From: Chloroflexota bacterium
Lineage (GTDB): Bacteria; Chloroflexota; UBA11872
DNA length: 64,000 nucleotides
Assembly: GCA_022825895.1 (NCBI GenBank)
Contig: JAJDVX010000010.1
Coordinates: forward strand, 62,001-126,000
Direction of reading: 5' to 3'
Made by a program: the position numbers and the translations under genes. Below, in pieces: positions 21,764-41,565 of the stretch. The notes under the pieces were generated by a model. That model did not search any database. It was not told the origin of the DNA and worked only from the letters and a program-made list of their open reading frames with translations. Positions within the stretch are counted from its first letter, which is position 1, and each line of letters begins with the position of its first letter.

Positions 21764-24700
21764 CTAGCGCTGAACGGGTACCACGACGTAGGGGGGCTCG
21801 ACGTCCAGGTCGGGACCGATTGAGCCGTTGCCGAGACGGTCGATGGCTTCGACGTAGTACATGAGGTCCCAGTCCGGAACGATGTCCATGCCGGGGATGG
21901 TGGCCGACCAGACGCCGTTGGTTTGCTGCATGGGAACCGGTGTGTAGAGTTCGCGCTGGTTGAGGTCGCGGTAATAGAGGGTTACGGACTGCAGATCGTC
22001 GTCGGAATCCACGCGGGCGGTGACGGTGAGGTCCTGGCCGGGGACGGCGAGCGAGGCGCGTTCGACGTCGACGGCCGGAGCAGAAACGGCGTTACCGACG
22101 GCCACGGGTTGGGGGGCTTCGGCGGAACGCCAGGATCTGCTTTCTCCGTTAGCGTCGGTGGCCTCGATGTAGTAGGCGGCGTCACAACAGGCGGGGACGG
22201 TAATGCCGGCTGAGTAGACGGGGCCGTCAGCGGACATGGACGCGCGCTGCCAGGGGCAGTCGCCGGAGCGCCAAACCAGGTCGACGCTCTCGATGCCGTC
22301 GGGGGCGGTGACAGTGGCCGACAGGTCGAGCGAGCCGGGGGCCGCTGTGCGGACGGGGACATGCCCGATTTGGGGTGCGGCTTCGCGGACGACGAGGGCG
22401 TTGATGACCCAGTCGGAGGCGGGGTGGGAGTTGATTTCAAGCTCGAGGCGCCCGTTGGCGATGTTGCAGCGCTGGGTCTTCTGAACTACCTGGCCGGCGG
22501 GAATGGTGAAGCGCTCGGTCTGGTGACGGCCCTGGAAGGTGAGCCACATAGGGCCGCGGTCCGCGGCATCCGGCGAAGTGTCGCACATGACAGCGGTTAC
22601 GTCGTAGACGCCCGGCGCGACTTCGGCGCGGAAGGTGTGCTCGACGTAGCCGGGATTGGGTCCGCGGTGCTGGAAGTCGTCTTCCAACAGGCGGAGGGGA
22701 AGATCGCCGGGTTCCCGATTGCGGCCCAGCAGGTCGCCGTTGTCGGGGAGCGGCGGGCTGAAGGCGCGGATGTCGCGCGTCATCTTCCAGCCGATGCCGC
22801 GCGTGGGGGTGTACTGGACGTCGGGCGAGACGGCGCGGAAGCGTCGTTCGACCCAGGCGGACTGCATGGTTCGGGGGATCCAGGGACGCGGGTCGACGGG
22901 TTCGGCGCCGAAGTCGAAGCCGTGGGCGAAGAGGCCGAAGCGTTCGAAGACTCGCTGGACTTCGTCCAGGCGGGCGAGGTCGTGGTCGAGGTAGGGGGTG
23001 AGGCGATTCCAGGTGCCGGCTTCGTCCTTGACGGGGCCGAAGATCATCTCGTCGTCGTAGAGGCCGCCGGTGTGGTCGACGATGGCCTGCCACTGGTCGC
23101 GAGCGGACTGCATGTGGGCCCTGGCGGACTTCAGGCGATCGGCGGCGCCGGCCAGGTAGAAGAAGGCGAGGTCCAAGCCCGCGCGCAGCTTGTGGGCGTG
23201 GTAGCGCGCGAGACCGGAACAGAGGCGGACATCGGCTTGGATACCGCGAAATTCGGGTCGGGCCTCGCTTTGAACCGAGCCATCCGCTCGATCGAGGGCG
23301 GCATCGGCGGCGTTGGCGTGCCGCTCGAGGCGTTCGGCGATCTGCAGCGGGGTGAGCTTGGCGCGGACGGAGTCAGCGAGATAGTCCTCGACGTATTCGC
23401 TGGCGCCATAGAAACCAGCCAGGTCGCTCGGTTCGACCTCGAGGTAGGCGTCGAGCAGGCCGCCGGTGTCGCGCTCGGCCCACCAGCCGAAGACGCTGGC
23501 CGAGGGGAGGTGGGCGGCGGTGATGAACGGGAGGTAGTGGGAACTCTTCGAGACGGCATCCAGCACGTCAGCCCCGGCGTCGGCGCCAAAGCGGTCGTTG
23601 AATTCGCGCTGCCACGCAGCGGAATCGCAGGCCGGGTCGTAGCCGAGGCGGCCGAAGAGGAGGTACCAGAACCAGTAGCGTTCGTCCTCGAACTCGTACC
23701 AGTTCATGTCGTCCGGCTTGAAGAGCGGCCAGGCGCCACCGACGTTGCGGAAGCCCTTGTTGGACAGGGGGGCGCAGACTTCGAAGCCCTTGGAGCCACC
23801 CAGGGCGCAGCTCTCGGCGTAGCGCCGGACCCAGGCTGGGTCGCCCCACAGGGTGAACTTGTTGGTGCCCAGATTCCACATACGGAGCAGGAACTCGTAC
23901 TCGCGCGGGTACTTGAGCAGGTCGCCGTAGGAGTGGCGGCGGTCCATGCGGTCGAAGTCCTGCAAGAGACCGGCGGAGTAGGGCATGCCCTGGTGCTCGC
24001 ACCAGTACTTGGTGGAGACGGTGGTGGGCAGGCCGGTATCCAGCGCGCCTTCCCAGGTGTCGTCGGCGATGGCCTTGGCGCGACAGTCGATTTCGATTTC
24101 GCGGCCGGCGGCCACGACGCCGCTGTAGATCGAGCGGAAGAAGGCCGGGCTGTCCTCGGCCTCGATGCCGGACTCGGAGTTCACGCGTAGCTGGACGCCG
24201 GAAATGTCCGGGCAGGCCTTGAGGACCTTGGCCATGCCGAGCTCGCAATAGTCGGCCAGGATGTCGAGGCTGAGACCTTCGACCAGGGACTCGCCGTACT
24301 CGTAGCTGTGCTGCTGCCAGACGCCGAAGGTGAAGTCGATGCCGCGCTCCACGGCGGTGCGGGAGATCATCTTGAGGGTGGCGAGGTTTCGTTCGCGTTG
24401 CTCGTCGGACAGGCTGGGCACGGTGACATCGGGGAACTCGGGCATCGGGACCAGGAAGGCGTAGGGCGGGACGAGGTAGGCCGTCTGATGGCCGAAGGTG
24501 AGGCTGAAGGCGTTGAAGCGGTAGAGCGAGAGCTTGTCGAAGTAGGCCCGCCAGAACTCCGGGTTGAAGTACCAGGGGCCGTCGACGGCTTCGTTGTGGG
24601 GAAAGATGCAGACGCTGCGCTTGCGGAGGAACGGGGACTCGCTGGTGGGCGGGAAGGTAGCTGCCCAGTCGAGCTGCGCCGGGGCGAGTTCAATGCGGCG

Positions 24701-25006
24701 AGAGGCCTCGCGCAAAGCGTAGGCGAGACCGCGGTCGTCGGAGCCGCCGATGGCCAGGGTTCCGCCGGCGAAGGCGAACGCCAGGGACTCGGGCGCGTCG
24801 TTCAGGGCAGCGCCCGCCGCCTGCAGCCGAGCGGCCGGTTGGGTCGTCGCCGCCGTGCCCACCTGGATCGTGATCGCGGCGTGATCGTCGGTGACGGTGT
24901 AGCCGCTCTCGTCGAGCGTTTGCCGGAGCCGATCCAGCGCCAATTCCGCGGGCGATCCCAGGTCGCCGTTGACCACGATTCGAATGCGTGTCGCTGCGTC
25001 AGCCAC
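21764..25006 (-). CDS. large glycoside hydrolase-like protein (GH67/GH20-type N-terminal domain, TIM barrel, C-terminal beta domains)
   Basis: A 1080-residue protein. Residues about 1-120 resemble the alpha/beta domain that precedes the barrel in GH67 and GH20 enzymes (GGSDDRGLAYALREASRRIE). Residues about 130-500 contain barrel-type segments (PWYFNPEFWRAYFDKLSLYRFNAF, VNSESGIEAEDSPAFF, NLGTNKFTLWGDPAWVRRY). The C-terminal 350 residues look beta-rich and may be carbohydrate-binding. No signal peptide is seen at the GTG start (25006), so it is probably cytoplasmic. Which glycosidic bond it cuts cannot be told; an alpha-glucuronidase-like role is only a possibility. It follows the sulfatase and beta-propeller genes of the same strand. 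Confidence 0.6.
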   Translation of the reverse strand: MADAATRIRIVVNGDLGSPAELALDRLRQTLDESGYTVTDDHAAITIQVGTAATTQPAARLQAAGAALNDAPESLAFAFAGGTLAIGGSDDRGLAYALREASRRIELAPAQLDWAATFPPTSESPFLRKRSVCIFPHNEAVDGPWYFNPEFWRAYFDKLSLYRFNAFSLTFGHQTAYLVPPYAFLVPMPEFPDVTVPSLSDEQRERNLATLKMISRTAVERGIDFTFGVWQQHSYEYGESLVEGLSLDILADYCELGMAKVLKACPDISGVQLRVNSESGIEAEDSPAFFRSIYSGVVAAGREIEIDCRAKAIADDTWEGALDTGLPTTVSTKYWCEHQGMPYSAGLLQDFDRMDRRHSYGDLLKYPREYEFLLRMWNLGTNKFTLWGDPAWVRRYAESCALGGSKGFEVCAPLSNKGFRNVGGAWPLFKPDDMNWYEFEDERYWFWYLLFGRLGYDPACDSAAWQREFNDRFGADAGADVLDAVSKSSHYLPFITAAHLPSASVFGWWAERDTGGLLDAYLEVEPSDLAGFYGASEYVEDYLADSVRAKLTPLQIAERLERHANAADAALDRADGSVQSEARPEFRGIQADVRLCSGLARYHAHKLRAGLDLAFFYLAGAADRLKSARAHMQSARDQWQAIVDHTGGLYDDEMIFGPVKDEAGTWNRLTPYLDHDLARLDEVQRVFERFGLFAHGFDFGAEPVDPRPWIPRTMQSAWVERRFRAVSPDVQYTPTRGIGWKMTRDIRAFSPPLPDNGDLLGRNREPGDLPLRLLEDDFQHRGPNPGYVEHTFRAEVAPGVYDVTAVMCDTSPDAADRGPMWLTFQGRHQTERFTIPAGQVVQKTQRCNIANGRLELEINSHPASDWVINALVVREAAPQIGHVPVRTAAPGSLDLSATVTAPDGIESVDLVWRSGDCPWQRASMSADGPVYSAGITVPACCDAAYYIEATDANGESRSWRSAEAPQPVAVGNAVSAPAVDVERASLAVPGQDLTVTARVDSDDDLQSVTLYYRDLNQRELYTPVPMQQTNGVWSATIPGMDIVPDWDLMYYVEAIDRLGNGSIGPDLDVEPPYVVVPVQR

Positions 25007-25140
25007 GGCTATCGCCTCTCTTTGGGCGCGCCGAACGGTGCGCCCGATCGCCCGACTCGGAATGCTCGGGGCATTGTCGCAGTCCCCGCCAGGATCAGAA
25101 GAACCGAGCCTTCGCTACAACGCCCTGAGCCGGCCTCATC

Positions 25141-26589
25141 CTAGAAGCCGGGGCGCGGGATGGGTGTTTCGCCCTCGGCCACGAAGGAACGCAGTTCCCT
25201 ACCGGAGAGCGGCAGGAAGTCGCCGCGGATGGCGTAGATGCGGGCGTTGTTCATCTCGATCTCGAGGCGAATTGCCTGGCCGGTGAAGGAGGCAAGGCCG
25301 CGCCCGCCAGTCCAGCGGGGCGACCAGTCGAGCGCGTCGCCGGTAAAGGGGTGGCAGTCGTCGTAGCCGTAGCCCTCGATCACCTCGCCGGTCGGGTCGG
25401 TGACCTGCACTCGGGTTTCGAGACCGGACTGGATGTTGAACCTGGCCTCGCCGCCCTGCCAATAGAGGGAACGGGTGCCGATCATGCCCGGACCGAAGCA
25501 GGACTCGACGTAGTAGAAGCCGTCCAACCGCAGCTTGTGCATGAGCAGGGCGCCGGTGTCGTTGCCCTCGCCGGCCGGTCCGCGTTCGAGTCGCTTGGGT
25601 CCGATATGGGGGTTGATGTGGTACCCGTGCTCGAGCTTGGAGGCACTGGAGTAGATGCGGATCTGGTTGTCGTCGTCGACGAGGAGACTGTGCGGACGCA
25701 TGGTGCCCGCGCCGTACTCGCCCTGCTCGGCGTTGGGGATGAAGGGCTCCCGGATGGAGCGGTTGAAGTGCCAGCCGTTGTAGCTGTAGGCCAGCTGGCA
25801 GTCGGTCTTACCTCCCCAGTACTTGACCAGGGGGACGGGATCGGTGTGATAGATCCAGACCAGGCCGACAAACTTGTCGGCGTAGGGGAAGGCGACCATG
25901 CCGTAGATTTCGGCCAGCGGGGTGTCGAGGGCGTCGGTGGCGAGCACCAGTTCGGGCTCGCTGTAGGTCCGAAAGTCCTTTGTCTCCGAAAGCGCGACCC
26001 GGCGCGGGTGCGCGTGGGGCGCGGGGCGGGCGCTGATGACATAGCAGTCGCGCACGTGGTTCCAGTAGGCGGTGCTGGGCGGGTCGGGGCTGTGCTTGCG
26101 CCATTCCACGCCCTTGACGCGGGTCCAGTTCAGGCCTTCGGGCGACGTCCACAGGTGGTTCCCCTTGCCGACCGCGAAGCCCTTGACGCGCTCGTTCGGG
26201 TCTTCAGCGTGCTCGTCGAAGTAGCAGTCCCACTGGTGGAAGTCCTCGGACTTGGACAGCACCTGGTTGGGGTACCGGCGGTCCGGTAGGGGCACACGAT
26301 CGGTCAGATCGGGCTTCTCCCAGTGAATGCCGTCGTCGCTCTCGGCCACCAGGGCGTAGCTGTCGGGCTGTTCCTCGGGAACCACGGACTTGCCGTTGTA
26401 GAGGATGCGCCAGACGCCCGACTCGTGCTTGAACGCGGTGGGGTAACCGGAGCCGAGCCAGAAGCCGGGCTCTTCGAGGGTGGCCTCGGGGACAAGCTGC
26501 GGCTGGCCGATTCCCCGCCGGCAGTTATTCCAGCGACTCAGGTAGTTGTCGTCCCAGAAGAGGAGCGTGAAATCGCCGGAATTCAGCAT
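25141..26589 (-). CDS. beta-propeller glycosidase-like protein (GH32/43/62-type fold), paralogue A
   Basis: A 482-residue protein from ATG 26589 (MLNSGDFTLLFWDD). It carries repeated S-x-D/E-G-x-x-W segments, such as AESDDGIHWEKPD and TSPEGLNWTRV, the blade pattern of five-bladed beta-propeller glycosidases. It ends in a beta-sandwich-like region (RLEIEMNNARIYAIRGD). No signal peptide. It lies between a sulfatase gene and the 1080-residue glycosidase-like gene on the same strand. It is related in motif and length to the genes at 29805 and 32676. The catalytic acids were not identified with certainty. Confidence 0.72.
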   Translation of the reverse strand: MLNSGDFTLLFWDDNYLSRWNNCRRGIGQPQLVPEATLEEPGFWLGSGYPTAFKHESGVWRILYNGKSVVPEEQPDSYALVAESDDGIHWEKPDLTDRVPLPDRRYPNQVLSKSEDFHQWDCYFDEHAEDPNERVKGFAVGKGNHLWTSPEGLNWTRVKGVEWRKHSPDPPSTAYWNHVRDCYVISARPAPHAHPRRVALSETKDFRTYSEPELVLATDALDTPLAEIYGMVAFPYADKFVGLVWIYHTDPVPLVKYWGGKTDCQLAYSYNGWHFNRSIREPFIPNAEQGEYGAGTMRPHSLLVDDDNQIRIYSSASKLEHGYHINPHIGPKRLERGPAGEGNDTGALLMHKLRLDGFYYVESCFGPGMIGTRSLYWQGGEARFNIQSGLETRVQVTDPTGEVIEGYGYDDCHPFTGDALDWSPRWTGGRGLASFTGQAIRLEIEMNNARIYAIRGDFLPLSGRELRSFVAEGETPIPRPGF

Positions 26590-26707
26590 GGCGGGAACTC
26601 CCTGCGTGGCGCACACGGCATCAGGTTGCATTGACGATACCGCGCGGAGTGCGCGGGCCTGAAGTCGCGTTGCCGCTGTGGCGCCAGGGGATTGCCGGGG
26701 ATAGCGA

Positions 26708-28186
26708 CTACGAACTGTCCCGGCGGTTGAGGTCGGGCCTGATCTGGTCGGGCAGGAGTTGCGGGCGTCCCGCGACAAGGAGTTGGCCGTCCACGAACCC
26801 CTCCGGGCGGTTGCGTAGCTGGTCCAGCATGCGCCGGCGCCAGAGGGCCACGCGGGGTGCGGCGGCCGGGTCGTTTGCGGCGTTGTGGAGCTCGTGCGGG
26901 TCGCGAGCCAGGTCGAAGAAATGCTCCTGGCCGTCCTCGGGATACCAGATGTACTTCTCGCGGCCGTCGGTCAGGTACTGGTGGCCCGGGGCGTACTCCG
27001 ACCAGCGCGCGCTGCCGCGTCCCATGCGTCTGCCGTTGTGCTCGCCGTGCAGGTAGGGGCGCCAGGCCGGCCGTTCTCCGCGGGCCAGCGGGACGACGCT
27101 GCGGCCGTCCACGGAGTCCGGAATCGCGACGCCCGCCGCGTCCAGCAGGGTAGGCATGACGTCCTGGAGGCCGACCGGCTGATCGATCACGGAGCCCTGT
27201 TGCGGTTCGAGCCAGTCGGGGAGCCGCAGGATGAAGGGGATGTTGGCGGAGGGCTGATGCGCCCAGGTCTTGCGGAATAGGTTGTGGTCGCCCAGCATCT
27301 CGCCGTGGTCGCTGGTGTAGAGCACGACGGTGTCCCGCCACATGCCGGCGGCGGAGAGCGCGCGAAAGACGCGGTTGACCTGGTCGTCGATGTGATTGAC
27401 AAGCCCGTAGTAGGCGGCGCGCATGCGGCGCATCCAGGCGTCGGGCAAGTTGATATCGACGGGCTGGATGTTGAGGCCGAGGTTGGGTTGGTCGAACTGC
27501 CTGGCCCAGTCGCCGATGAAGGGCTCGGGGATGTCGTCGGCGCGGGCCATGTAGCGGTCGAAGTACAGCTTGGGCGGAGTGAAGGGCGGGTGCGGATCGA
27601 CCACTGAGATCCACAAGAAGAGCGGGGACTCGGGGTCGCGCTTCTGGATGAGCTTGAGCGATTCGTTGGCGCACCAGGTGGTGAGGTCGTAGCCCTCGGG
27701 CAGGTGGCTGGGACGGGCGTTGAAGGAGTTGGTCTCGACGCCGTGCAACTTGCCGGCCAAGACTTCGCGGCGGCCCTGGGCGTTGAGCCAGTCGGCGTAG
27801 TCGTTGCCGTCGCGCTGGCTGTTGGCGACGAGCATGTGTTGAAAGCCGAAGCGCTTGCGGTCCGGGTGCCAGTGGGTCTTGCCGATGAGCTCGGTCTGAT
27901 AGCCGGCGTCTGCAAGCGTGGAGGCGATGGAGTGGCGGAGGTTCCATTGGTAGCCGCCGTAGAAGCCGACCATCCCGTTGGTGACGGGGGCCTGACCCGA
28001 GAGGATGACGCGGCGCGCGGGGATGCAGGTTGGCGACTCGCTGAACGCCGAGCGGAACCAAGCGCCGTTGCCGGCCAGGTAGTCGAGGTTGGGGGTGCGG
28101 AGGACGGGATGGCCGTCGATACCCAGGGCGTCGGCGCGTTGCTGGTCGGAGGTGATGAGAAGGATGTGCGGGCGGCGGCGGGGCAT
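26708..28186 (-). CDS. sulfatase with canonical C-x-P-x-R motif
   Basis: A 492-residue sulfatase. It begins MPRRRPHILLITSDQQRADAL, with the first metal-binding Asp in TSDQQRAD, and the formylglycine motif is C54-I-P-A-R58, intact. Further features are VVDPHPPF and VLYTSDHGEMLGDHNL, the latter giving the second metal Asp/His. It hydrolyses sulfate esters of sugars or other alcohols after Cys is converted to formylglycine; no maturase gene is in the window. No signal peptide. The neighbouring sulfatase stops 5 bp upstream, so they are co-transcribed. Confidence 0.95.
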   Translation of the reverse strand: MPRRRPHILLITSDQQRADALGIDGHPVLRTPNLDYLAGNGAWFRSAFSESPTCIPARRVILSGQAPVTNGMVGFYGGYQWNLRHSIASTLADAGYQTELIGKTHWHPDRKRFGFQHMLVANSQRDGNDYADWLNAQGRREVLAGKLHGVETNSFNARPSHLPEGYDLTTWCANESLKLIQKRDPESPLFLWISVVDPHPPFTPPKLYFDRYMARADDIPEPFIGDWARQFDQPNLGLNIQPVDINLPDAWMRRMRAAYYGLVNHIDDQVNRVFRALSAAGMWRDTVVLYTSDHGEMLGDHNLFRKTWAHQPSANIPFILRLPDWLEPQQGSVIDQPVGLQDVMPTLLDAAGVAIPDSVDGRSVVPLARGERPAWRPYLHGEHNGRRMGRGSARWSEYAPGHQYLTDGREKYIWYPEDGQEHFFDLARDPHELHNAANDPAAAPRVALWRRRMLDQLRNRPEGFVDGQLLVAGRPQLLPDQIRPDLNRRDSS

Positions 28187-28191
28187 GGCGC

Positions 28192-29634
28192 TCAGGCGCT
28201 CACCTGGTTGGTTGAAGGTTGTAGCTGTTCCGGGCGGAGTTCGTGCTGCCCGGCGACCAGGCGGCCGTCGCTGACGAAACCTTCGGGGCGAGCGGCGAGT
28301 TCGCCGATGAGGCGCTGACGCCAGACGGCCACGCGCTCGCTTGCGTCGGCGTCGTCGACAGCGTTGTGCATTTCGAGTGGATCGGCGTCGAGATCGAAGA
28401 ACTGTTCCTCGCCGGTTTGGGTGTACCAGATCAGCTTGTGGTGACCGTCGGTGACCCACTGGTTGCCCTGGTCGGGCTCGTAGCAGGCGGTGTGCTCGCC
28501 GTGGAGGTAGTCGCGCCAGGCGGGTGAGTCACCACGCATGAAGGGTAGGACGCTGACGCCGTCGACGGATTCGGGAATCGGAGCGCCTGCGACGTCGAGG
28601 ATGGTGGGCATGACGTCCTGGAGACCGACGGGGCGCTCGATGGTCAAGCCGGCGGTGCAGTTCATCCACTCGGGGGCGCGGGCGAGGAACGGGACGCGGA
28701 TGGAGGCCTCGTAGGGCCAGGTTTTGCGAAAGAGGTTGTGGTCGCCGAGCATCTCGCCGTGGTCGCTGGTGAAGAGCACGAAGGTGTCGTCCAGCAGGCC
28801 GCTTTCGCGGAAGCCCTTGAGCAGGCGCGAGACCTGGTCGTCGACGTGGTTGACGAGGCCGTAGTAGCCGGCGCGGCAGCGGTGGAGGTCGTCTTCGCGG
28901 AGGCGCATGACGGAGGCGTCGGGGTTGAGGCCGGGAGGCGGCGCATCAAGTTGGGGCGCCCAGTCGCCGACGTAAGGCTCGGGAAGGTCCATCGACTCGT
29001 AGCGTTCCCAGTAGACGAGCGGAGGGGTTAGCGGCGGGTGCGGGTCGACGAAGGAGACCCAGAGGAAGAACGGGGCGTCGGGGTCGCGCTGGCCGATGAA
29101 GCGGAGAGCCTCGTTGACGCACCAGGTGGTGTGGGAGAAGCGTTCGTCGAGATGGCTGGGGCGTCCCACCCAGCCGTTGGTGGAGACGCCATGGGCCAGA
29201 CCCATCTCCAGCGACGTGGCGCCGTTATCGGCCAGCCATTCGGCGTAGTCGTTGTTGTCGCGCTGGCTGTCGGCCCAGACCATGTTGTCGAAGCCGTAGC
29301 GCTTGCGTTGCGGGTACATGTGGAGCTTGCCGACGAGTTGCGTCTGGTAGCCGGCCCTTGAAAGCTCGCCGGGCAGCGAGTGGTCGAGCGCCCAGCCGAC
29401 GCCGCCGTAGAAGCCGACCATGCCGTGGTTGTAGGGCTGCATGCCGGAGAGCATGGTGCGGCGGGCGCCGATGCAGGACGGGACTTCGGCGTAGGCGCGG
29501 GTGAAGTTGGTCCCGCTGGCGGCCAGGAAGTCGAGGTTGGGCGTTGCCAGCGGGTCGGCGCCGTTGATGCTGAGGGCATCGCCTCGCTGCTGGTCGGTGG
29601 TGATGAAAATGATGTGCGGGCGGCGATCAGCCAA
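28192..29634 (-). CDS. sulfatase with variant C-x-G-x-R motif
   Basis: A 480-residue sulfatase, clearly a paralogue of the downstream one: same MADRRPHIIFITTDQQRGDAL opening, FVDPHPPLTPPLVYWERY, and VLFTSDHGEMLGDHNLFRKTW. Its formylglycine motif is C54-I-G-A-R58, with Gly in place of the usual Pro. The start is a TTG (29634); no in-frame ATG fits. It heads a minus-strand run of four genes down to 21764. Substrate unknown, likely a sulfated sugar (inference). Confidence 0.9.
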   Translation of the reverse strand: MADRRPHIIFITTDQQRGDALSINGADPLATPNLDFLAASGTNFTRAYAEVPSCIGARRTMLSGMQPYNHGMVGFYGGVGWALDHSLPGELSRAGYQTQLVGKLHMYPQRKRYGFDNMVWADSQRDNNDYAEWLADNGATSLEMGLAHGVSTNGWVGRPSHLDERFSHTTWCVNEALRFIGQRDPDAPFFLWVSFVDPHPPLTPPLVYWERYESMDLPEPYVGDWAPQLDAPPPGLNPDASVMRLREDDLHRCRAGYYGLVNHVDDQVSRLLKGFRESGLLDDTFVLFTSDHGEMLGDHNLFRKTWPYEASIRVPFLARAPEWMNCTAGLTIERPVGLQDVMPTILDVAGAPIPESVDGVSVLPFMRGDSPAWRDYLHGEHTACYEPDQGNQWVTDGHHKLIWYTQTGEEQFFDLDADPLEMHNAVDDADASERVAVWRQRLIGELAARPEGFVSDGRLVAGQHELRPEQLQPSTNQVSA

Positions 29635-29804
29635 GGCGCGGAACCCTGTTCAGCGGACGCGGGGTGATTATCGCGCACGGATGGGCGGCGGGGAGGTCCA
29701 GACGCTGCACCGCCTGTATCGGTGTAGCTGCCGCGGACGGCGGGGTGGGCGGATTGGACATATAGTCAGCGACAGGGTCGGGGTTCGTCTGAGGAGCGGC
29801 GGTG

Positions 29805-32332: not shown

Positions 32333-32675
32333 GCCAGGAGCGGCGCGTTGCCCTCGTGGGTGAGTGAATCAGACGCCTTGCACGCCAATCGAGGCTGCGA
32401 CTTTACATAAGACGAGACAGCACGAGTTGGTGCTTGCGTGCCGGCGGATTCCCGGGGCGTTGGGGCGACGCCGGTGCTGACGCATGCTGGATTTGCCGTG
32501 CATGTCGGCCATCAACCCCAAGCACCGAAGTGAGCCTGAGATCCTGTCCCACAATAACGTCGCCGGGTGGCTCGGCGAGAGACTGGCCTTTCCAGCACGG
32601 CGAGAGTTTCAGCCAGGCGTTGCGGTTGGCAGCAAGCGCTCAAGGATTGACCCCGGCGATCCGAGCATTCTCGGC
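32333..32675. other. intergenic stretch without recognisable gene
   Basis: A 343-bp gap lies between two convergently transcribed genes. Short ORFs on both strands (for instance 32434-32691) have no recognisable protein character. I see no tRNA, and no copy of the palindromic repeat family. It could be a decayed gene; this cannot be supported further. Confidence 0.4.
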
Positions 32676-34172
32676 CTACGAGAGGGCGTAGGCGTAGAGG
32701 CGGGCTGCGCCGTAGAGCCAGAAGCGGAGTTTGACCTGGCCGCCGCCGAGATCGGACAGGTTCTTGCCGTTCCAGGACACGGGCCGGCGCAGGCCGTCGA
32801 TGAAGATGTCGTCGGAGTCCCGGCGGGTGAAGCCGTCCAGGGGCTGGTTGGTGTCGGGGTCGAGGATTTCGACTTCGATCCAGCTGCGGTTCTGGCGGAC
32901 GTCGCCGACGTTGAGGGTGAGGTTCGTGAGACCGGCCGAATCAATAGGCGTGGTCGTGGCGTGGCCGGGGGTTTCGCGGTCGGGGGTTTCGAGGCAGGTG
33001 AAGCCGTCCTCGCGGAGGGTGGCGAGACCCATGCGCACGACGCGCCCGGAGCCGCTGCCGGAGCCGCCGTATTCGACGCCCGGGATGAAGTTCTCGGGCG
33101 GCCAGGTGGTGAAGTCCTCGGCGGCACCGCCGTAGTACAGGTAGATGGTGCCGTCCTTGACGACAGGCTTGTCGGAGATGACGAGCAGGCCGCCGTCCCA
33201 CTCGGTGTGGGCGCCGCGCGGGATGGTGGGCTGGTGGGGGTTTACGCGTTCGAAGTTGGCGCCGTCCGAGCTCACGGCCAGGCGAATGTCGCCTCCGTAC
33301 ATGCCGTAGAGCCCATAGTCGCTGGGTACGTACCAGCCGTACTCGTAGGCCATGATCCAGGCGCCGCCGTACGGGCCCATCATGACGTGATGGTCTTCTT
33401 CCTCGAGGCCGTCGTTGGGTGAAATCAGCGGGTTTTCTTCGGCTTCGCGGAAGTTCTCGATGTCGGGACCATAAGCCAGGAATTTGGCTCGGCCCTGGGA
33501 CGGGTTTCGCTTGGCGAATTGCTTCTGGTGGGGCTCGTCAATGTCGACCATCCACTGGTAGACGAATTTGAAACGCCGGCTTGGATCGGGGTCCTGATCG
33601 TCACGGACCAGAACGCCGACGTCTGGCGGTCGTCCACCCCAGCGCGGAAGCAGGATTCGCTCGCCGGTGGTCCAGTTGATGCCGTCCGGGGAAAAGATGG
33701 CACGGGCGCCGTGCTCGCTGTAGGCGGGTTCCCCGACGTAGCTGTGGAGGCGCTTGATGCCCTTGTAGCGCTTGTTGGGGTCGGGCTCGGCGTCGTCCTT
33801 GATGACTGGGCCGCGGCCTTCGATGACGATGTTGTTTTGCTTACTGCCCTTGTACTCGAACATCCCCAGGTTGGGCTTGTGCCAATTGACGCCGTCCTCG
33901 CTTATGGCGTACCCGGTGGCCCACCAGCTGGCGCCGCCCATGTCGGAGCCGGCGTACCAGGCCTTGAAGAGCTTGTCCTCTTCGTCGTAGATGACGCTTT
34001 GGGAGGACCAGGGGGCGCAGTGGGTGGAGTCCCACTCGTGGATGTCGCCGAGCGGGAGCACGGGGTTGAGCGGGTGCTTTTCGGCCTTGCAGACGGCCCG
34101 GACGACGTTGTGGCGGGACTCCACACGGTCGAGGAGGAGGAAGCCATCGGTGCTGGCTGGGTTGGCGCTCAT
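32676..34172 (-). CDS. beta-propeller glycosidase-like protein, paralogue C
   Basis: A 498-residue protein from the ATG at 34172 (AAGGA upstream), the best match to paralogue B in this locus. Shared features are AISEDGVNWHKPNLGMFEYK and FSPDGINWTTGERILLPRWGG in the propeller. A C-terminal beta-sandwich segment SWIEVEILDPDTNQPLDGF ends the protein. No signal peptide is present; a longer ORF start at 34244 is not supported. Conserved acids suggest a five-bladed propeller glycosidase, but I could not place it in a GH family. The ABC importer genes follow upstream on the same strand. Confidence 0.75.
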   Translation of the reverse strand: MSANPASTDGFLLLDRVESRHNVVRAVCKAEKHPLNPVLPLGDIHEWDSTHCAPWSSQSVIYDEEDKLFKAWYAGSDMGGASWWATGYAISEDGVNWHKPNLGMFEYKGSKQNNIVIEGRGPVIKDDAEPDPNKRYKGIKRLHSYVGEPAYSEHGARAIFSPDGINWTTGERILLPRWGGRPPDVGVLVRDDQDPDPSRRFKFVYQWMVDIDEPHQKQFAKRNPSQGRAKFLAYGPDIENFREAEENPLISPNDGLEEEDHHVMMGPYGGAWIMAYEYGWYVPSDYGLYGMYGGDIRLAVSSDGANFERVNPHQPTIPRGAHTEWDGGLLVISDKPVVKDGTIYLYYGGAAEDFTTWPPENFIPGVEYGGSGSGSGRVVRMGLATLREDGFTCLETPDRETPGHATTTPIDSAGLTNLTLNVGDVRQNRSWIEVEILDPDTNQPLDGFTRRDSDDIFIDGLRRPVSWNGKNLSDLGGGQVKLRFWLYGAARLYAYALS

Positions 34173-34293: not shown

Positions 34294-35169
34294 TTAGCCC
34301 TTGATGCCGGTCAGCGCGATGCCGCGGATGAACTGCTTTTGGGCCAGGAAGAAGGCCACGATCATCGGCACAATCAGCAGCATGGCGCCGGCCATGAGGA
34401 GATGGTATTCGGTGCCGAACCTGGAGACGAAGAACTTAAGGCCTACCGCAAGTGTGAGATTCTCGGTTCGCAGGAGATAGATCAACGGCTCCAGGAAGTC
34501 ATTCCAGCGGTTCATGAACGAGAAGACCGCAATGGTCGCGATGGCAGGCACCGAAAGTGGGATGACGACCTTGCGGAGGATCTGGAGGTGGGAAGCGCCG
34601 TCGATACGAGCCGCGTCGTCGAGCTCGCGCGGCAGCGTGAGGAAGAACTGTCGCATGATGAAGATGTAGAACGGCGTCCCGAAGAGACGTGGGATTAGCA
34701 ACGGCCACAACGTATCAATCATGTCCAGGCGGTGGAAGATGAGCCAGCGCGGGATCAGTGTCACGGCACCCGGGAGCATCATCGTGGCCAGGACGCCGAT
34801 AAAGAGCTTGTCGCGTGCCGCGAAGCGGGTGCGCGCGAAGCCGTAGGCGACTGAAACGCTTGTGATCGTTTCGGCGACCACGCTGAACGCTACGACAATG
34901 ATCGAATTCTTCATCCATGACCAAGTCGGTCCGTTCTGCCACATGATGGAGTAGTTTTCCCAGACCGGCGGCAAGGGAACGATGATCGGCGGGACGACGT
35001 AGAGGTCGGATTCCTTCGTCAGCGAGGTTCGTAGCATGAAGAACACGGGGTACATATAGACAAATGAGCCGCCGACCACGATGAGATAAAGAAGGAAACG
35101 GCGCGCCCAGCGGAAAGTGCGCAACACGATCGGCCGTCGCCGCCCTGCTTCGGCCGTAGTCGCCGTCAT
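34294..35169 (-). CDS. ABC sugar transporter permease (MalG-type)
   Basis: A 291-residue inner-membrane permease with six hydrophobic segments and the EAA loop with conserved Gly (ELDDAARIDGASHLQILRKVVIPLSVPAI). This is the binding-protein-dependent CUT1 (MalG) type that imports oligosaccharides. The cytoplasmic ATP-binding subunit contacts that loop; none is encoded in the window. The ATG at 35169 follows the TAG of the partner permease without a gap. Typical length for the family is about 275-295. Confidence 0.95.
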   Translation of the reverse strand: MTATTAEAGRRRPIVLRTFRWARRFLLYLIVVGGSFVYMYPVFFMLRTSLTKESDLYVVPPIIVPLPPVWENYSIMWQNGPTWSWMKNSIIVVAFSVVAETITSVSVAYGFARTRFAARDKLFIGVLATMMLPGAVTLIPRWLIFHRLDMIDTLWPLLIPRLFGTPFYIFIMRQFFLTLPRELDDAARIDGASHLQILRKVVIPLSVPAIATIAVFSFMNRWNDFLEPLIYLLRTENLTLAVGLKFFVSRFGTEYHLLMAGAMLLIVPMIVAFFLAQKQFIRGIALTGIKG

Positions 35170-36126
35170 CTAGCCTGGCTCCTGGTATTCGTAGTAGACC
35201 CAGCGCCGTGCGCCGAGGAACTGGACAATTGTGGCCGCAAAGATGATCGCGAAGAGGATCCAGGAGATTGAGGCGGCATAGCCCATCTTGAAGGCGTTCC
35301 AGCCCATGATCCAAATATAGAGCAGGATGAACAGGGTGGCGTTGTCCGGTCCGCCTCCCGTCATCAGCAACGCCTGGGTCACCACCTGGAACGACCCGAT
35401 CACACCCAGGATCAGGCTCAGGAATATGTAGGGCGTCATCATGGGAATGGTTACGTGGCGAACTTTGGCCCACCAGCCGCCGCCATCGACTTCCGCAGCC
35501 TCATAGAGATGTTGAGGCACGCCCTGCAGGCCGGCCAGGAATATCACCATGGAGGCGCCCACGCCCCAGAAGCTCATGATGATGAGGGCCGGCATGGCCC
35601 AGGTGGTCGATGTCAGCCAGCGCGGCCCCTCAATGCCAAACCAGCCCAGCATGCCGTTGAGCGCCCCGCGCGGCGCGAACAGCCAGATCCAGATCAATGC
35701 CATGCCCACGCCGGACGTCACGGACGGGATGTAGTACATGGTGCGCCAGATCGGCATGCCCCTGACCTTCTGATTCAGAAGGCCGGCCACCGTGAACGCG
35801 ATGATTGTCGACCCGGGGACGTGAAACAGGGTGTAGAAGGCGGTGTTCCAGAGGCTCTTGCCAACCAGAGGGTCAGTGAACGCCGCCTGGTAGTTGCGGA
35901 GTCCGATGTAGGTCGGCGGACGACCCACGTCCCAGTTCAGGAACGAGATGATGAGCGCGAAAATGTAGGGTCCCAGGTCGAGCAGGATGAAGCCCACGAC
36001 CCAGGGAAAGATGAAGACCCAGCCCTCCTGGCCGGCAATCCACTTGCGAATCGCACGCCAGCGCGAAAGGCGCGCGGGCACCGTTCGCAGGCCCGTCGTC
36101 TTCGCGCTAAGGCTGCTCGACGCCAC
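35170..36126 (-). CDS. ABC sugar transporter permease (MalF-type)
   Basis: A 318-residue membrane protein with six hydrophobic segments and the EAA motif HLYEAAEVDGGGWWAKVRHVTIPMM, of CUT1 MalF type. It pairs with the MalG-type subunit to form the translocation pore. The start is a GTG at 36126 (MASSSLSAKTTG). The gene lies 121 bp after the solute-binding protein gene, with a stem-loop in the gap, and is directly followed by the MalG gene. Transport cargo is inferred from the neighbouring sulfatases and glycosidases. Confidence 0.95.
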   Translation of the reverse strand: MASSSLSAKTTGLRTVPARLSRWRAIRKWIAGQEGWVFIFPWVVGFILLDLGPYIFALIISFLNWDVGRPPTYIGLRNYQAAFTDPLVGKSLWNTAFYTLFHVPGSTIIAFTVAGLLNQKVRGMPIWRTMYYIPSVTSGVGMALIWIWLFAPRGALNGMLGWFGIEGPRWLTSTTWAMPALIIMSFWGVGASMVIFLAGLQGVPQHLYEAAEVDGGGWWAKVRHVTIPMMTPYIFLSLILGVIGSFQVVTQALLMTGGGPDNATLFILLYIWIMGWNAFKMGYAASISWILFAIIFAATIVQFLGARRWVYYEYQEPG

Positions 36127-36247: not shown

Positions 36248-37867
36248 CTAGATTTCGCGTCGGAGAGCTTCGGTCCCCTCCGCGTCCAACTCTTCCATCA
36301 TCTGGTACGGGCTCTCGCCGCCCGTCAGGGCGCGGTCGCCGAGCTTGCCCAGAACGAGCCGGAACCACTCCAGCCAGTTCGGGTGCGCGTGGGTGCCGCG
36401 AATCCAGTTTTCGCGGAACTGACCCACGGCCTCGGCCTCCGCGGCCAGGTCGGGGAAGTTGTCCGTTCCGCTGGAGAACTCGGTGATGAACGGGCTGTTC
36501 CAGATGGACTTGGCGGCAGGCACGACCGGCTGAAACTCAGCCAGGTACGGCGCCATGATGTCGCCGTGCCAGAACAGGGCAAGCCCAGCGGCCTCCTCGG
36601 CGTTTCCGCGCTCCTCGGCGGCCCGATTGACCACGATGTTGTTGGTCTCGTTGTGGTAGCCGCGGAGACCCGTGTACGGCGACTGGTAAGGCCAGAACAC
36701 GTGGAAGTCGAAGCGGCCGCCGATGCGGTTCTTGATGCCTCCGCCCGAGTTGTAGCCGAAGCCGGACATTCCGATCAGCCCGGTGGCAAACAGGTTGGTC
36801 GAGCCGGAGGTGTTCGCCGGCGACTCCAGCGTGGCCTGCACCTCGTCGGTGGTCGGGGCCACGCCGTCTTCCCAGGCCAGCTTCCACCAGTCGGCGAACG
36901 CTTCAACCGAGTTGCCGCCGGGCACCGTGGCGACGGAAGCCGTGGACGTCTCGGACGCGGAGTCGTACCACTTGGCGCCTTCACTGGAGAAGCGCTCGGC
37001 CCAGCCCTGGTTCCAGGCCCCGGTCTGGCGCTCCAAGCCCCAAATGCCGGCTTCCTCGTCGCGCATCTGGGCCGAAAGTTCACGAAACTCGTCGAAACTG
37101 TAGTCCTTGTCGGGAATCGTGACGCCGAACTGCTCGACGAGGCTCAGGTTGGCCATCATGGCGCCGACGTACACACCGTAGGGCACCCCGCGAATAACCC
37201 CGTCCTTGTCAACCAGGTAGCCGTCGTGCCACCAGAAGTCGGCCGGCGTCAGGCCGGCGCGCTCCAGGTGCGGCTGCAGGTCAAGGTTGTAAAGGTCGGC
37301 GTTCCACCACAGCTCGGACATGACTTCCGGACCGGAACCCGCGACCAGCAGGTTGGTCAGGATGCCGGCGTAACCAACGGCGGTGCTGCCGCCGGAACCC
37401 GAGATGATGAGGATGTCCACGGTGACGTGCGGGTTGACCTTGTTGTATTCCTCGGCCATGAACTTGTGGGTAGCCGCGCGAACGCCGGAACCCCAGTCGG
37501 TGGAGAACTCCAGCCGCACCGGTGTCTTCTGCATCGGCGCTTCGACCATGACCTCGACTTCCCTGGTCACGACCTTCTCGACGACCCTCTCCCGTTCGAC
37601 GATCTCGGTCACCACGCGTTCGACCGGCACCTCAACTTGCTGGGTGACGATCTTCTCCTGCGTAACGATGCGATCGACCGGGACTTCCTTGACCTCGGTC
37701 CTCGTCACGATTGTTTCGACTGGGACTTCCTTGATGACCGTGGTCTCGACCGGGACTTCCTTGGTGATGATCTGCGGCTCGGCTTCGCCACAGGCCGCCA
37801 GGGCCGCGACGCCGGCCACGCCTACACCCAGTCCACCTGCGATGCGCAGCATCCGGCGTCGGGTCAT
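36248..37867 (-). CDS. ABC transporter sugar-binding lipoprotein with Tat-type signal
   Basis: A protein of about 539 residues. The N-terminus from ATG 37867 is MTRRRMLRIAGGLGVGVAGVAALAAC: twin-arginine-type basic residues, hydrophobic core and lipobox L-A-A-C. Then comes a charged spacer of about 80 residues made of E-V-P-V-E-like repeats, and then the extracellular type-1 solute-binding domain (DWGSGVRAATHKFMAEEYNKVNPHVTVDILIISG). This layout is common in Chloroflexota. An ATG at 37885 is an alternative. It is the first gene of a three-gene importer operon without its ATPase. Confidence 0.93.
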   Translation of the reverse strand: MTRRRMLRIAGGLGVGVAGVAALAACGEAEPQIITKEVPVETTVIKEVPVETIVTRTEVKEVPVDRIVTQEKIVTQQVEVPVERVVTEIVERERVVEKVVTREVEVMVEAPMQKTPVRLEFSTDWGSGVRAATHKFMAEEYNKVNPHVTVDILIISGSGGSTAVGYAGILTNLLVAGSGPEVMSELWWNADLYNLDLQPHLERAGLTPADFWWHDGYLVDKDGVIRGVPYGVYVGAMMANLSLVEQFGVTIPDKDYSFDEFRELSAQMRDEEAGIWGLERQTGAWNQGWAERFSSEGAKWYDSASETSTASVATVPGGNSVEAFADWWKLAWEDGVAPTTDEVQATLESPANTSGSTNLFATGLIGMSGFGYNSGGGIKNRIGGRFDFHVFWPYQSPYTGLRGYHNETNNIVVNRAAEERGNAEEAAGLALFWHGDIMAPYLAEFQPVVPAAKSIWNSPFITEFSSGTDNFPDLAAEAEAVGQFRENWIRGTHAHPNWLEWFRLVLGKLGDRALTGGESPYQMMEELDAEGTEALRREI

Positions 37868-37983
37868 GTGTGAACTGATGCCCATACCGTGAGCCTCCCC
37901 TTAAGTGCGACGCATCCGCTCGGCGCCGCAAGCCAAAGTACCATGCAGCGCCTGAATCTTCCTAACCCGAAACGGCAAAGCTG

Positions 37984-39216
37984 GTGGTATACGACCTGCT
38001 GATCACTGCCGGCCGCATCGAGGATCCGGCTCGGGGTCTCCGCGGACCCGGATATGTGGCGACGAACGACGATCGCATAGCGATCACAACCATTGGAGCG
38101 GATGCGGACGAAGTTCCGGAGGCGGGGCGGCGGCTCGACTTTCCCGAAGGCGTGCTGCTGCCCGGGCTGGTGGACATGCACGCGCACCCGGCGATTGAGG
38201 ACTCGAAGTACGGAGTCGACCCCGACGAGCACTTTCTGCCGCGGGGCTCGACGACCGTTATGTCGCAGGGCGATGCCGGTGCGCGCAATTGGCCGCGGTA
38301 TCGCGATCGAGTCATCGAACGTGCTCGCACCCGCGTGCGGATGGCCATCAACTTATCGGCCTCTGGGGAGTCCAACCCCGGATTCAGCCTGGGGGACTTG
38401 GCCGAGGCGGATGTGGACGCCTGCGTGAACGCGATCCGCGACGGAGGCGACCTGATCTGGGGCATCGCCATCAACGTGGCCGAGGCCGTGTGCGGGGACT
38501 GCGATCCGCGCGAGATGTTGCGCCGCGCAATCCAAGCGGGCGAAGCGACCGATCGCCCGCTGCTGGTCGGCACGCGGCACGACAACGACTTTCCGTTGGA
38601 CGAGTTGCTGGACCGGTTGCGGCCGGGCGACGTGGTGACCTATTGCCTGCACGGGCTCGTGGACCGCATCGCAAGGGACGGGCGGGTCCTGGACTGTGTA
38701 TGGCGAGCCCGGGAACGCGGCGTGCTGTTCGACACGGGCCACGGGATGGGGTCGTTTGACTTTGAGGTCGCGGAGACGGTGATCAAGGAAGGGTTTCTGC
38801 CCGACACGATTTCTACGGACCAGTACCGGCGACACGTGGGGTCCAGCCCGCAGCACGATCTTCCGCTGACAGTGTCCAAGCTGTTGGCGGCCGGGATGCG
38901 CGAAGAAGACGCCTGGCCGCGAATCACGTCGCGTCCGGCGGAACTCCTGGGCCTGGCGGGCGAGGTGGGCACGCTGGCGTCGGGCGCCTGCGCGGACCTG
39001 GTGGTGCTGACGGAAGCGAAGGAAGAAGTGCCGTTGCGGGATGTCAGCGGCCACGCGCGTTCCGGGAGGATCTGGAGCGCCGCGGCCGTCGTCCGAGGCG
39101 GCGAGGTGGTAACGCCGCCGGCCAGTTTGGACCGGACGGAGATCGTCGACGCCTCACTTACGGTCGCTCGCTTGTCGCCGGATGCGCCGCCGTCTAGATT
39201 CTTGACCAATCCATAG
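37984..39216 (+). CDS. amidohydrolase (dihydroorotase-like) family protein
   Basis: A 410-residue metal-dependent amidohydrolase. It shows the N-terminal beta-sandwich start MVYDLLITAGRIEDP, the metal-binding LVDMHAHPAIED, CLHGLV (His), DTGHGMG (His), and the DTISTDQYRRH segment where the Asp should sit. The end has SGACADLVVL, the second part of the sandwich. It most resembles the deacetylase/dihydroorotase branch. It begins at a GTG (37984); the solute-binding-protein gene is divergent with about 117 bp between. Its substrate may be an amide or lactone in the same pathway (inference). Confidence 0.88.
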   Translation: MVYDLLITAGRIEDPARGLRGPGYVATNDDRIAITTIGADADEVPEAGRRLDFPEGVLLPGLVDMHAHPAIEDSKYGVDPDEHFLPRGSTTVMSQGDAGARNWPRYRDRVIERARTRVRMAINLSASGESNPGFSLGDLAEADVDACVNAIRDGGDLIWGIAINVAEAVCGDCDPREMLRRAIQAGEATDRPLLVGTRHDNDFPLDELLDRLRPGDVVTYCLHGLVDRIARDGRVLDCVWRARERGVLFDTGHGMGSFDFEVAETVIKEGFLPDTISTDQYRRHVGSSPQHDLPLTVSKLLAAGMREEDAWPRITSRPAELLGLAGEVGTLASGACADLVVLTEAKEEVPLRDVSGHARSGRIWSAAAVVRGGEVVTPPASLDRTEIVDASLTVARLSPDAPPSRFLTNP

Positions 39217-39251
39217 GCGTCAGCTCGGGTCGTACCGAGACCGGAGGCATC

Positions 39252-40817
39252 GTGATCGCTCCAAAGTCGCGCGTTCCCGCATACACCTACCCGACGACGT
39301 TGGCCGAGCAAGAAGCGGCACTTGCCACGAACCCGCTCATGCAGCGGTTGCTGGCGTCGCGGGAGTCGTATGCCGGCTTGCGGCACCGTCCCGCGTATCA
39401 CTACGTCAATCCCGAATCGACCCTCAACGACCCCAACGGGCTCTGCTTCTGGCAGGGTCGCTGGCACCTGTTCTACCAGGCGTACCCGCCGGAGGACGAC
39501 CGGCAGCACTGGGGTCACGCGGTGTCCGACGACCTGGTGCACTGGCGCGATCTGCCGTACGCCATCTATCCGAGCCCCGAGGACAAGTGCTTTTCGGGAT
39601 CGACCCTGGTCGAGGACGACCGGGTCATTGCCATCTATCACGGGGTCGGCGCCGGGAATATGGTGGCGACGTCCAGCGATCCGCTGCTACTTAACTGGGA
39701 CAAAGTCGGCAACCGGGCCGTGATTCCGATGCCGGATCGAGACGGTCCGCCCGCGCCCTACCGGGTTTTCGATCCGTGTATCTGGATGAAAGACGGCGTC
39801 TACTACTCGCTGTCCGCCGGAACCAAGCCCGAGGGCCCCGCCGGCAAGCCGATCCGGGCCAACTTCCTGTTCAGGTCCGAGGACCTGGAGCACTGGGAGT
39901 ACCTGCACCCCTTCGTGGAAGACGACCACTACTCCATGGTTGGCGACGACGGCGCCTGTCCGTACTTCTGGCCGATTGGCGATCGACACATGCTGCTCTT
40001 TTACAGCCACACGAGCGGCGGCCAATACCTGCTGGGCGATTACGACACCGAGCGCGACAAATTCGTGGTGACGAACGGCGCGAAGTACAACTTTGGGCCG
40101 TCAGGGCCATCGGGCCTGCACGCTCCGTCGGCGACGCCGGACGGCAAGGGCGGCCTGATCGTGATCTTCAACATGAACCCCGGAAAGCCCACGCCGCGCT
40201 GGAACCAGATTATGACGCTGCCGCGACGACTTACGGTCGACGGCGACGTGGTGTTTGTGGAACCGGTCGAGACCCTGACCTCGCTGCGGCAGGCAGAGCA
40301 AGACGTGGGCTCACTGGATTTGCCGGCCAACCAGGAGGTAGTACTGGACGGAACGGCCGGCGACTCGCTTGAGCTTGAGTTGGAAGTCGAGCCTTCGTCC
40401 GCGCCGATGGTTGAGCTGAACGTCCTGCGCTCGCCGGACCGGGAAGAGTTCACGCGTATCGCCTTCTACCGCGACCGCGGCTATCGCACCAACCACTTCA
40501 CGCAGGGAATCGTGGGACCGCTCTGGACCCACTTGAGCCAGATCTCGATCGACACGTCGTATTCGTCGATCGCGCCCGATGCGCTGTCGCGTGCGCCGGA
40601 AAACGCGCAGGTCCTGATCGCGCCCGACGAGCCGCTGCGGCTACGGGTGTTCGTTGATCGAAGCGCGGTGGAGGTGTTCGCGAACGGGCGGCAGGCCCTG
40701 GCGGTGCGCGTCTATCCCGAGCGCGAGGACAGCGTGGGTGTATCGCTGCGTTCGCAGGGAGCGCCAAGCACGGTGCGATCTCTGAAGGCGTGGACGCTGG
40801 AGGCGCTCTGGGACTAG
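39252..40817 (+). CDS. glycoside hydrolase family 32 protein (fructosidase-like)
   Basis: A 521-residue protein starting at GTG 39252 (GGAGG five bases upstream). GH32 features are the nucleophile motif N59-D60-P61-N62-G63, RDP-type motif F173-D174-P175, and a C-terminal beta-sandwich with LRVFVDRSAVEVFANG. The expected Glu of the E-C motif is replaced: the stretch reads D-D-G-A235-C236-P. The acid/base is therefore either missing or provided by another residue, and fructosidase activity is not assured. No signal peptide. Normally hydrolyses beta-fructosides. Confidence 0.9.
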   Translation: MIAPKSRVPAYTYPTTLAEQEAALATNPLMQRLLASRESYAGLRHRPAYHYVNPESTLNDPNGLCFWQGRWHLFYQAYPPEDDRQHWGHAVSDDLVHWRDLPYAIYPSPEDKCFSGSTLVEDDRVIAIYHGVGAGNMVATSSDPLLLNWDKVGNRAVIPMPDRDGPPAPYRVFDPCIWMKDGVYYSLSAGTKPEGPAGKPIRANFLFRSEDLEHWEYLHPFVEDDHYSMVGDDGACPYFWPIGDRHMLLFYSHTSGGQYLLGDYDTERDKFVVTNGAKYNFGPSGPSGLHAPSATPDGKGGLIVIFNMNPGKPTPRWNQIMTLPRRLTVDGDVVFVEPVETLTSLRQAEQDVGSLDLPANQEVVLDGTAGDSLELELEVEPSSAPMVELNVLRSPDREEFTRIAFYRDRGYRTNHFTQGIVGPLWTHLSQISIDTSYSSIAPDALSRAPENAQVLIAPDEPLRLRVFVDRSAVEVFANGRQALAVRVYPEREDSVGVSLRSQGAPSTVRSLKAWTLEALWD

Positions 40818-40836
40818 GCCGAGCGAGCGCGACGGA

Positions 40837-41565
40837 TCAGCGGCTCTTCCAGTCCAGGTCGATCTCGGGCAGCATCGGCAGTTCCTGCATGAACCGGTAG
40901 AAGCGTCCGGTCGGACCGCCGTCCGGCAGCGAGGCCAGCCAGACGGCCGTCGGCACGGCCTCGGAGGGCGGCACGTCCGAGGTCGGGTTCATGTCGGTCT
41001 TGACCGAGCCGGGGCTCATGGCGTTGACGAGGACGTTGGAGGCCTCGACCTCTTTGGCCATGGCAATCGTCAGCGCGTTGACCGCGGCCTTGGACGCGGC
41101 GTAGGCCGACTCGCCGGGATTGCACATGATGGCGGCGCCGGAGGAGACGTTAACGATTCGCCCGTAGCCGGCTTCGATCATGTGCGGCAACGCGGCGTGG
41201 CAGCAGGCGAAGAGGCCCACGAGGTTTACCGCCTGCACACCGGCGAAGGCTTCCGGTGCGACGTCGGCAACATGCCCGCGGGCATTGCTGACGCCGGCGT
41301 TGTTGCACAGGACATCGAGCCGTCCATGTTGTCCGACCACATCGTCAATCGTCCGCCGCACCGCGGCCACGTCGGCAACGTCCATCCGCGCGACGTCGGT
41401 CGATCCCGACAGGTCGTCGATCTCGGCCGCGACGGCGGTTAGCCGTGCCTCGTCGCGCGCGGCCAGGACGACGTGCGCACCAGCCCGCGCGTAGCCAAGC
41501 GCGACTTCGCGCCCGATTCCGCGACTGGCGCCGGTGACCAGTGCTATACGACCAGCAAGACTCAT
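40837..41565 (-). CDS. short-chain dehydrogenase/reductase
   Basis: A 242-residue classical SDR. It shows VTGASRGIGR (cofactor loop), CNNAGVSN, the catalytic Ser in NVSSGAA, and Y-A-A-S-K near residue 155. It ends PTGRFYRFMQ in place of the usual TGxxxxVDGG tail. Gene on the minus strand, convergent with the GH32 gene with an 18-bp gap. Substrate unknown. It might take part in the same carbohydrate route, but there is no direct evidence. Confidence 0.92.
   Translation of the reverse strand: MSLAGRIALVTGASRGIGREVALGYARAGAHVVLAARDEARLTAVAAEIDDLSGSTDVARMDVADVAAVRRTIDDVVGQHGRLDVLCNNAGVSNARGHVADVAPEAFAGVQAVNLVGLFACCHAALPHMIEAGYGRIVNVSSGAAIMCNPGESAYAASKAAVNALTIAMAKEVEASNVLVNAMSPGSVKTDMNPTSDVPPSEAVPTAVWLASLPDGGPTGRFYRFMQELPMLPEIDLDWKSR

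Follow-up and report, generated by a model that had tools for sequence, protein, structure and literature searches.

How do the abundant, uncultured Chloroflexota of sponges feed on the glycans of their hosts? This question is raised by a locus at positions 21764 to 41565 of a 64,000-nucleotide stretch of Chloroflexota DNA, called the window below (contig C26:62001-126000 of a 3.54 Mb genome in 44 contigs, 94% complete). Two S1 sulfatases (sulf1, sulf2), a 1080-residue glycosidase-like protein, three related propeller proteins (propB, propC, propD) and a CUT1 sugar importer lie there beside a GH32-like protein, a D-2-hydroxyacid dehydrogenase (2HADH), an amidohydrolase and a short-chain dehydrogenase/reductase (SDR). 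The cluster is real and is conserved in one genus. We consider it fairly likely that the cell uses it to take up sulfated acidic oligosaccharides and degrade them inside. An earlier sequence-only reading of this DNA had listed the same genes; all are present, and their Pfam domains agree with the listing. That reading had also assigned the DNA to a Chloroflexota-type genome, which is borne out by eleven related loci, all from Chloroflexi/Chloroflexota metagenome-assembled genomes (MAGs; ten drafts, one chromosome).

The source bacterium is a marine member of the Chloroflexota and probably a sponge symbiont. The labels RHO and COS on the MAGs of its relatives suggest the sponges Rhopaloeides and Coscinoderma, according to the available excerpt of Robbins 2021 (PMC8163846).

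We infer the substrate, the order of the steps and the enzymatic activity of every protein as follows. Other enzymes or organisms would release the oligosaccharides, which would then enter through the lipoprotein binding protein and the two permeases, with energy from a MalK-type ATPase whose gene lies elsewhere. Cytoplasmic S1 sulfatases, activated by a maturase from another contig, would remove sulfate esters; the substrate of their best-known relative is 3-O-sulfo-N-acetylglucosamine. After desulfation an alpha-linked uronic acid would be taken off by the GH138-like enzyme, and the remaining linkages would be cut by at least one of the orphan propeller enzymes, acting as hydrolase or phosphorylase. 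The oxidoreductases, the amidohydrolase and the GH32-like protein are putative members that may process the products. A sulfated substrate, as the earlier reading supposed, is likely.

Importer, sulfatases and cellular location

The importer consists of a PF01547 binding protein and two PF00528 permeases, as the sequence-only reading had it. The same reading found no formylglycine maturase and no ABC ATPase in the window, and the genome search agrees: all matches are on other contigs, none on C26. Three OB_MalK matches, indicating MalK-type ATPases, are on C13, C14 and C34. A PF03781 maturase, which had been suggested as something to seek elsewhere in the genome, is on C6 (278 bits), and a second, weaker match of 95 bits is on C38. 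Against the PDB at E 0.01 the binding protein matches only two families, 22hh (ligand unnamed, E 1.4e-6) and 6rjy (arabino-oligosaccharide-binding, E 6e-4). In this it differs from the glycosaminoglycan ABC importer of PMC5430744, which in the available excerpt resembles the locus in that a binding protein and an ABC importer supply internal degradation.

Signal peptides in the locus genes were assessed with a crude hydropathy score over the first 45 residues, which errs in both directions (Mg-chelatase scores 1.80, permease 1 scores 1.40). The cluster enzymes score 0.33 to 1.43 and none has a signal-like segment, in line with the earlier reading. The binding protein scores 2.24, begins with a twin-arginine lipoprotein-like sequence and has the sole secretion signal among the locus genes. 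Corrected starts, which had been seen as a possible source of overlooked signals, were assigned to sulf2, propB, 2HADH and propD and create no signal peptide. The claim that the substrate is taken up whole is unsupported: importers of the CUT1 ABC type imply oligosaccharides, and there is no sign that a polymer is taken up. In keeping with the contrast that was drawn with Bacteroidota loci, the locus genes scanned, to which the search was confined, give no Pfam match to a SusC/SusD pair such as a polysaccharide utilization locus of that phylum has.

Both sulfatases match PF00884 (166 and 162 bits, cut-off 25) and carry the C-terminal SGSH_C subdomain (62 and 71 bits, cut-off 29). S1 sulfatases have the formylglycine motif C-x-P/A-x-R, which the CIPAR site of sulf2 fits. 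The nearest solved structure to both is 7OZ8 (E 1.6e-97 and 2e-92). This is BT1918, a 3S-GlcNAc sulfatase of family S1_46 (PMC10154620) that acts on 3S,6S-GlcNAc in heparin/heparan breakdown by B. theta (PMC10154612), as stated in the available portions of these papers. There BT1918 is described as periplasmic, whereas the locus sulfatases lack signals and sulf1 has a deviating motif; the likeness is one of overall sequence.

The genome has 33 PF00884 matches, or about 32 sulfatase genes. Thirty of these loci were taken; 8 gave no motif and 22 are readable, two of which are one frame, leaving 21 distinct genes. All 21 are without signals. The highest pre-domain score is 1.19, compared with 2.24 for the binding protein, where the scored stretch differs from that used for the locus genes and proteins with about 10 residues or fewer before the domain, having no room for a signal, were left unscored. 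Signal-less sulfatases look like the rule in this genome and not like something special to the locus, and internal desulfation thus appears to extend across the genome. It would reserve the sulfate and sugars for the cell itself, in contrast to the surface/periplasmic scheme of Bacteroides outlined in the excerpt of PMC10154612.

The GH138-related protein and the orphan propellers

The 1080-residue protein has no Pfam match at E ≤0.001, and only sub-threshold ones at E ≤10. The NCBIfam model NF049878 (alpha-d-galacturonidase equivalog) is matched by all 8 members of its family; the window's protein scores best, at 55.5 bits, which does not reach the cut-off of 1300. A PDB search with this protein alone finds BPa0997 (E 1.5e-7), followed by marginal GH115 matches (E 0.3 and 0.67). 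With the 8-member family profile, BPa0997 is the sole match at E ≤0.01 (best 1.4e-16). The family aligns with it by hhalign at 99.6% over 583 columns with 23% identity, and the homology spans the N-terminal domain, the central region and the helical region. We take BPa0997 (PDB 6HZE/6HZF; NF049878) to belong to family GH138. These comparisons suggest that the 1080-residue protein is a distant relative of the GH138 alpha-galacturonidases, in a sister family, and a candidate alpha-uronidase. An extra C-terminal beta-rich region distinguishes it from BPa0997.

E278 and E337 are invariant in all 8 members. By eye, their contexts (G/S-E and K-Y/F-x-x-E) resemble those of E294 and E361 of BPa0997, which are presumably its catalytic glutamates; the PDB entry names an E361S variant. 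We propose E278 and E337 as the catalytic glutamates. The predicted structure has low confidence (mean pLDDT 53.0). In a Foldseek search with it, the first 24 ranks are glycosidases, mostly of GH115, GH84 and GH67, at TM-scores of about 0.1-0.2. The later ranks shown are mostly immunoglobulin/fibronectin type III (Ig/FnIII) proteins, which presumably fall on the modelled beta-rich C-terminus.

The three propeller proteins are related to one another (BLAST E 1e-7 to 2e-8, about 20-31% identity in aligned stretches). None has a Pfam match at E ≤0.001, and at E ≤10 there are only sub-threshold matches, such as that of propB to a BT_1020-like propeller (E 0.013). For propD, NCBIfam gives beta-1,2-mannobiose phosphorylase as a weak match (E 0.045). 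A family alignment was built from 27 members, 23 from this genome and 4 from relatives, none of which matches any Pfam family at E 0.01. Its profile matches the uncharacterised carbohydrate-binding protein 6n1a (E 7e-14) and mannoside phosphorylases (E 5e-13 and 1.6e-9) in the PDB and, more weakly, fructosidase and anhydrogalactosidase structures. We take GH130, GH117 and GH32 to be the five-bladed propeller glycosidases and phosphorylases. The locus propellers fit best as members of a still unassigned family of this type, a likeness drawn from PDB profile matches and not from catalytic residues. The structure model of propC is of very low confidence (mean pLDDT 34.8).

In its own genome the propeller profile has 39 matches, counted as about 26 genes. 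A survey of the phylum, scoring three candidates per genome, found a match in 48 of 400 genomes and 20 of 224 genera. Against plasmids propB has one match, at 24% identity, on an Isosphaeraceae plasmid. An in-frame TGA in propD of five relatives was considered as recoding or decay and was rejected; in G157, the one read, the TGA is upstream of the conserved Met.

Conservation and competing explanations

Near-full-length GH138-like genes are present in 12 of the 13 genomes of the genus, the 13th holding a 48-residue piece. None is found in the 6 genomes of the sister genus, and the best match outside the genus, among 400 genomes of the phylum, is 48% identical. Judged by sequence identity, close orthologs are confined to one genus. 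The full order from the SDR to the GH138-like gene is kept in four genomes (G308, G205, G157 and G069). The synteny expected by the earlier reading is found in these close relatives. It is weak evidence, because identities are mostly 86-98% and the housekeeping neighbours encoding Mg-chelatase and MurJ are just as conserved; the synteny breaks down in G023 (73% identity), the most distant congener. There the binding protein, the two permeases and the GH138-like gene form a compact unit at 0.70 Mb, so the importer and GH138-like genes stay adjacent. In G322, from another family of the class (f4), the 48% identical GH138-like gene is flanked on one side by a related binding protein (41%) and on the other by a sulfatase. 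Nine distant GH138-like places, two of them on short contigs, were searched with sequences of this genome only, which makes the counts minima: a sulfatase at 3, permeases at 2 and a binding protein at 1.

In some relatives, about 9 kb beyond the GH138-like gene (at L046:12543-16022 and also in L035, L036 and L038), are permeases 49-64% identical to those of the window, accompanied in L046 by a binding protein that is 26% identical. They are a probable second CUT1 importer.

Neighbourhood statistics were computed across the genome, leaving out the window's own clusters. Within 10 kb of a sulfatase are 11 of 19 propeller clusters (2.6 expected, binomial P 7.6e-6), and within 5 kb 6 of 19 (1.5 expected, P 0.003). 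Propeller clusters that share a contig depend on one another to some degree, and the chance probability, calculated from the total length of the genome, is an upper limit. It is unlikely that this association arose by chance. Of 23 sulfatase clusters, 7 have a PF01547 gene within 10 kb (2.5 expected, P 0.009).

Several observations weigh against one catabolic locus for imported oligosaccharides. The window's sulf1 has CIGAR in place of CxPxR at its formylglycine site, as do all 12 loci scanned (from 7 other genomes, five of them represented twice), and the activation of this sulfatase is therefore uncertain. The assignment of E278 and E337 stays a proposal because the automatic alignment with BPa0997 misses E294 by one column and leaves E361 unpaired. 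A PF01547 gene is found within 10 kb of 3 of the 19 propeller clusters (2.1 expected, P 0.34), so a general link between propellers and importers is unsupported. No secreted depolymerase is seen in the locus, to which the search was confined. In G023, propC and propD are neighbours at 1.77 Mb, with propB at 2.52 Mb. A direct test found no sulf1 or sulf2 orthologs in that genome; its three closest sulfatases are 46-52% identical to sulf1, 46% to sulf2 and 64-78% to other paralogs of the window's genome. The sulfatases and propellers are therefore not obligatory partners of the importer, and the genes beyond the importer and the GH138-like gene are looser company.

Some of these points lend credit to a rival explanation that we nevertheless hold to be rather unlikely, namely a loose neighbourhood. 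The importer with the GH138-like gene, the sulfatase pair with the propellers, and GH32, amidohydrolase and oxidoreductase genes of no relation to them would then lie together by accident in one subclade and share no common substrate. It is favoured by G023, where importer and GH138-like gene are together on their own, by the equally conserved housekeeping neighbours and by the lack of propeller enrichment near binding-protein genes. The strands also alternate: propC-2HADH on the plus strand breaks two minus-strand runs, SBP-permease1-permease2-propD (SBP, solute-binding protein) and sulf1-sulf2-propB-GH138-like. The second run argues the other way, being tightly spaced on one strand with gaps of 5, about 118 and 134 bp. 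So do the genome-wide association of propellers with sulfatases and the recurrence, in another family, of a GH138-like gene adjoining a sulfatase.

Sulfur scavenging or detoxification, in which the sulfatases would act on sulfated monosaccharides or other small sulfate esters that enter the cell, with carbon use secondary, is improbable. Both sulfatases pass the generic arylsulfatase model NF010322, and the many signal-less sulfatases of the genome could serve many small substrates. However, the neighbouring genes, for glycosidase-like proteins and an importer of the sugar type, speak for glycan use, and scavenging would be little needed because seawater is rich in sulfate. Remodelling or recycling of the bacterium's own sulfated glycan has very little to recommend it: MurJ is near the locus and a nucleotide-sugar-dehydratase-like reading frame, identified by eye, is near that of G023, but the locus and flanking genes scanned include no sulfotransferase or glycosyltransferase and the importer is of the CUT1 uptake type.

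The catabolic locus for imported sulfated oligosaccharides remains the reading that we prefer. The sequence-only reading is thus supported in part, with the GH32-like, amidohydrolase, SDR and 2HADH genes as putative members only. More tentatively, the genus may run a largely cytoplasmic sulfated-glycan economy, in which the GH138 sister family with its importers and the expanded propeller family, working beside sulfatases as glycosidases or phosphorylases, would dismantle sulfated alpha-uronosyl glycans of the sponge matrix.

Precedents and remaining genes

Among the matches listed in literature searches, no published description of this locus was found. The type of system is already known from sponge Chloroflexi. 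According to the accessible text of Slaby 2017 (PMC5649159), one guild of sponge symbionts, to which Caldilineae and Anaerolineae Chloroflexi are assigned, repeatedly has arylsulfatase genes in clusters with a dehydrogenase and ABC transporters. Arylsulfatase enrichment in these sponge Chloroflexi is reported, and glycosaminoglycan use proposed, in the available part of Bayer 2018 (PMC6306507). The present locus is like these in phylum, probable host type, the many arylsulfatases and the hypothesis of sponge-matrix glycans. It differs in the GH138-like enzyme, the propeller family and the missing signal peptides, which the excerpts of the two papers do not mention. Two enzyme families are new, the sister family of GH138 and the propellers associated with sulfatases; both appear, from the searches above, to be uncharacterised. 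If the propellers are enzymes, they make up a carbohydrate-active family that is still unassigned, with some 26 genes in one genome, many of them beside sulfatases, and the GH138 sister family comes in addition.

Table 1. Features of the locus, in window coordinates.
Feature	Position	Strand	Basis and remarks
GH138-related TIM-barrel-type enzyme, 1080 aa	21764..25006	-	NCBIfam NF049878, PDB, hhalign; candidate alpha-uronidase, without signal peptide
propB, orphan five-bladed-propeller-type glycosidase-like protein	25141..26589	-	Family profile; start corrected, approximate (~26589)
sulf2, S1 sulfatase	26708..28186	-	PF00884/SGSH_C; CIPAR motif, without signal peptide; corrected start ~28186
sulf1, S1 sulfatase	28192..29634	-	PF00884/SGSH_C; CIGAR replacing CxPxR, without signal peptide
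propC, orphan propeller protein	29802..31379	+	Family relatedness/profile
2HADH	31376..32332	+	Pfam/NCBIfam; pathway role putative; corrected start 31376
BNR (sialidase-like) gene, DNA-level trace	32560..32675	-	Intact gene in four relatives
propD, orphan propeller protein	32676..34172	-	Family relatedness; corrected start ~34172
CUT1 permease 2	34294..35169	-	PF00528
CUT1 permease 1	35170..36126	-	PF00528
Solute-binding protein	36248..37885	-	PF01547 and N-terminus; twin-arginine lipoprotein-like signal
Amidohydrolase/deacetylase-family metallohydrolase	37984..39216	+	PF01979; PRK09237; putative member
GH32-like protein	39252..40817	+	PF00251/PF08244; putative member
SDR oxidoreductase	40837..41565	-	PF00106; putative member

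GH32 proteins have the motifs NDPNG, DP and ECP. The GH32-like protein has both the N- and the C-terminal domain and keeps NDPNG and DP, and its full motif set is incomplete in that Ala replaces the Glu of ECP in 5 of 5 sequences; it may for this reason not be an ordinary fructosidase. The amidohydrolase scores 239 bits with PRK09237, under the cut-off of 371. Between propD and 2HADH, four relatives (G308, G069, G280 and G157; L035:1238-2551) have a BNR/sialidase-like gene of 438 aa, of which G205 has an 86-aa remnant and G229 nothing. The window has no protein-level BNR match at E 0.01, and the gene survives there as a DNA-level trace only.

Part of a further sulfatase is present at the start of the window (1-681; C26:61614-62678). 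Beside the locus, at 9363-18660, aldo/keto reductase, epimerase, URO-D, 2-hydroxyacid dehydrogenase, acetamidase/formamidase, SDR and acetoacetate decarboxylase-like genes are grouped in what looks like a separate catabolic group.

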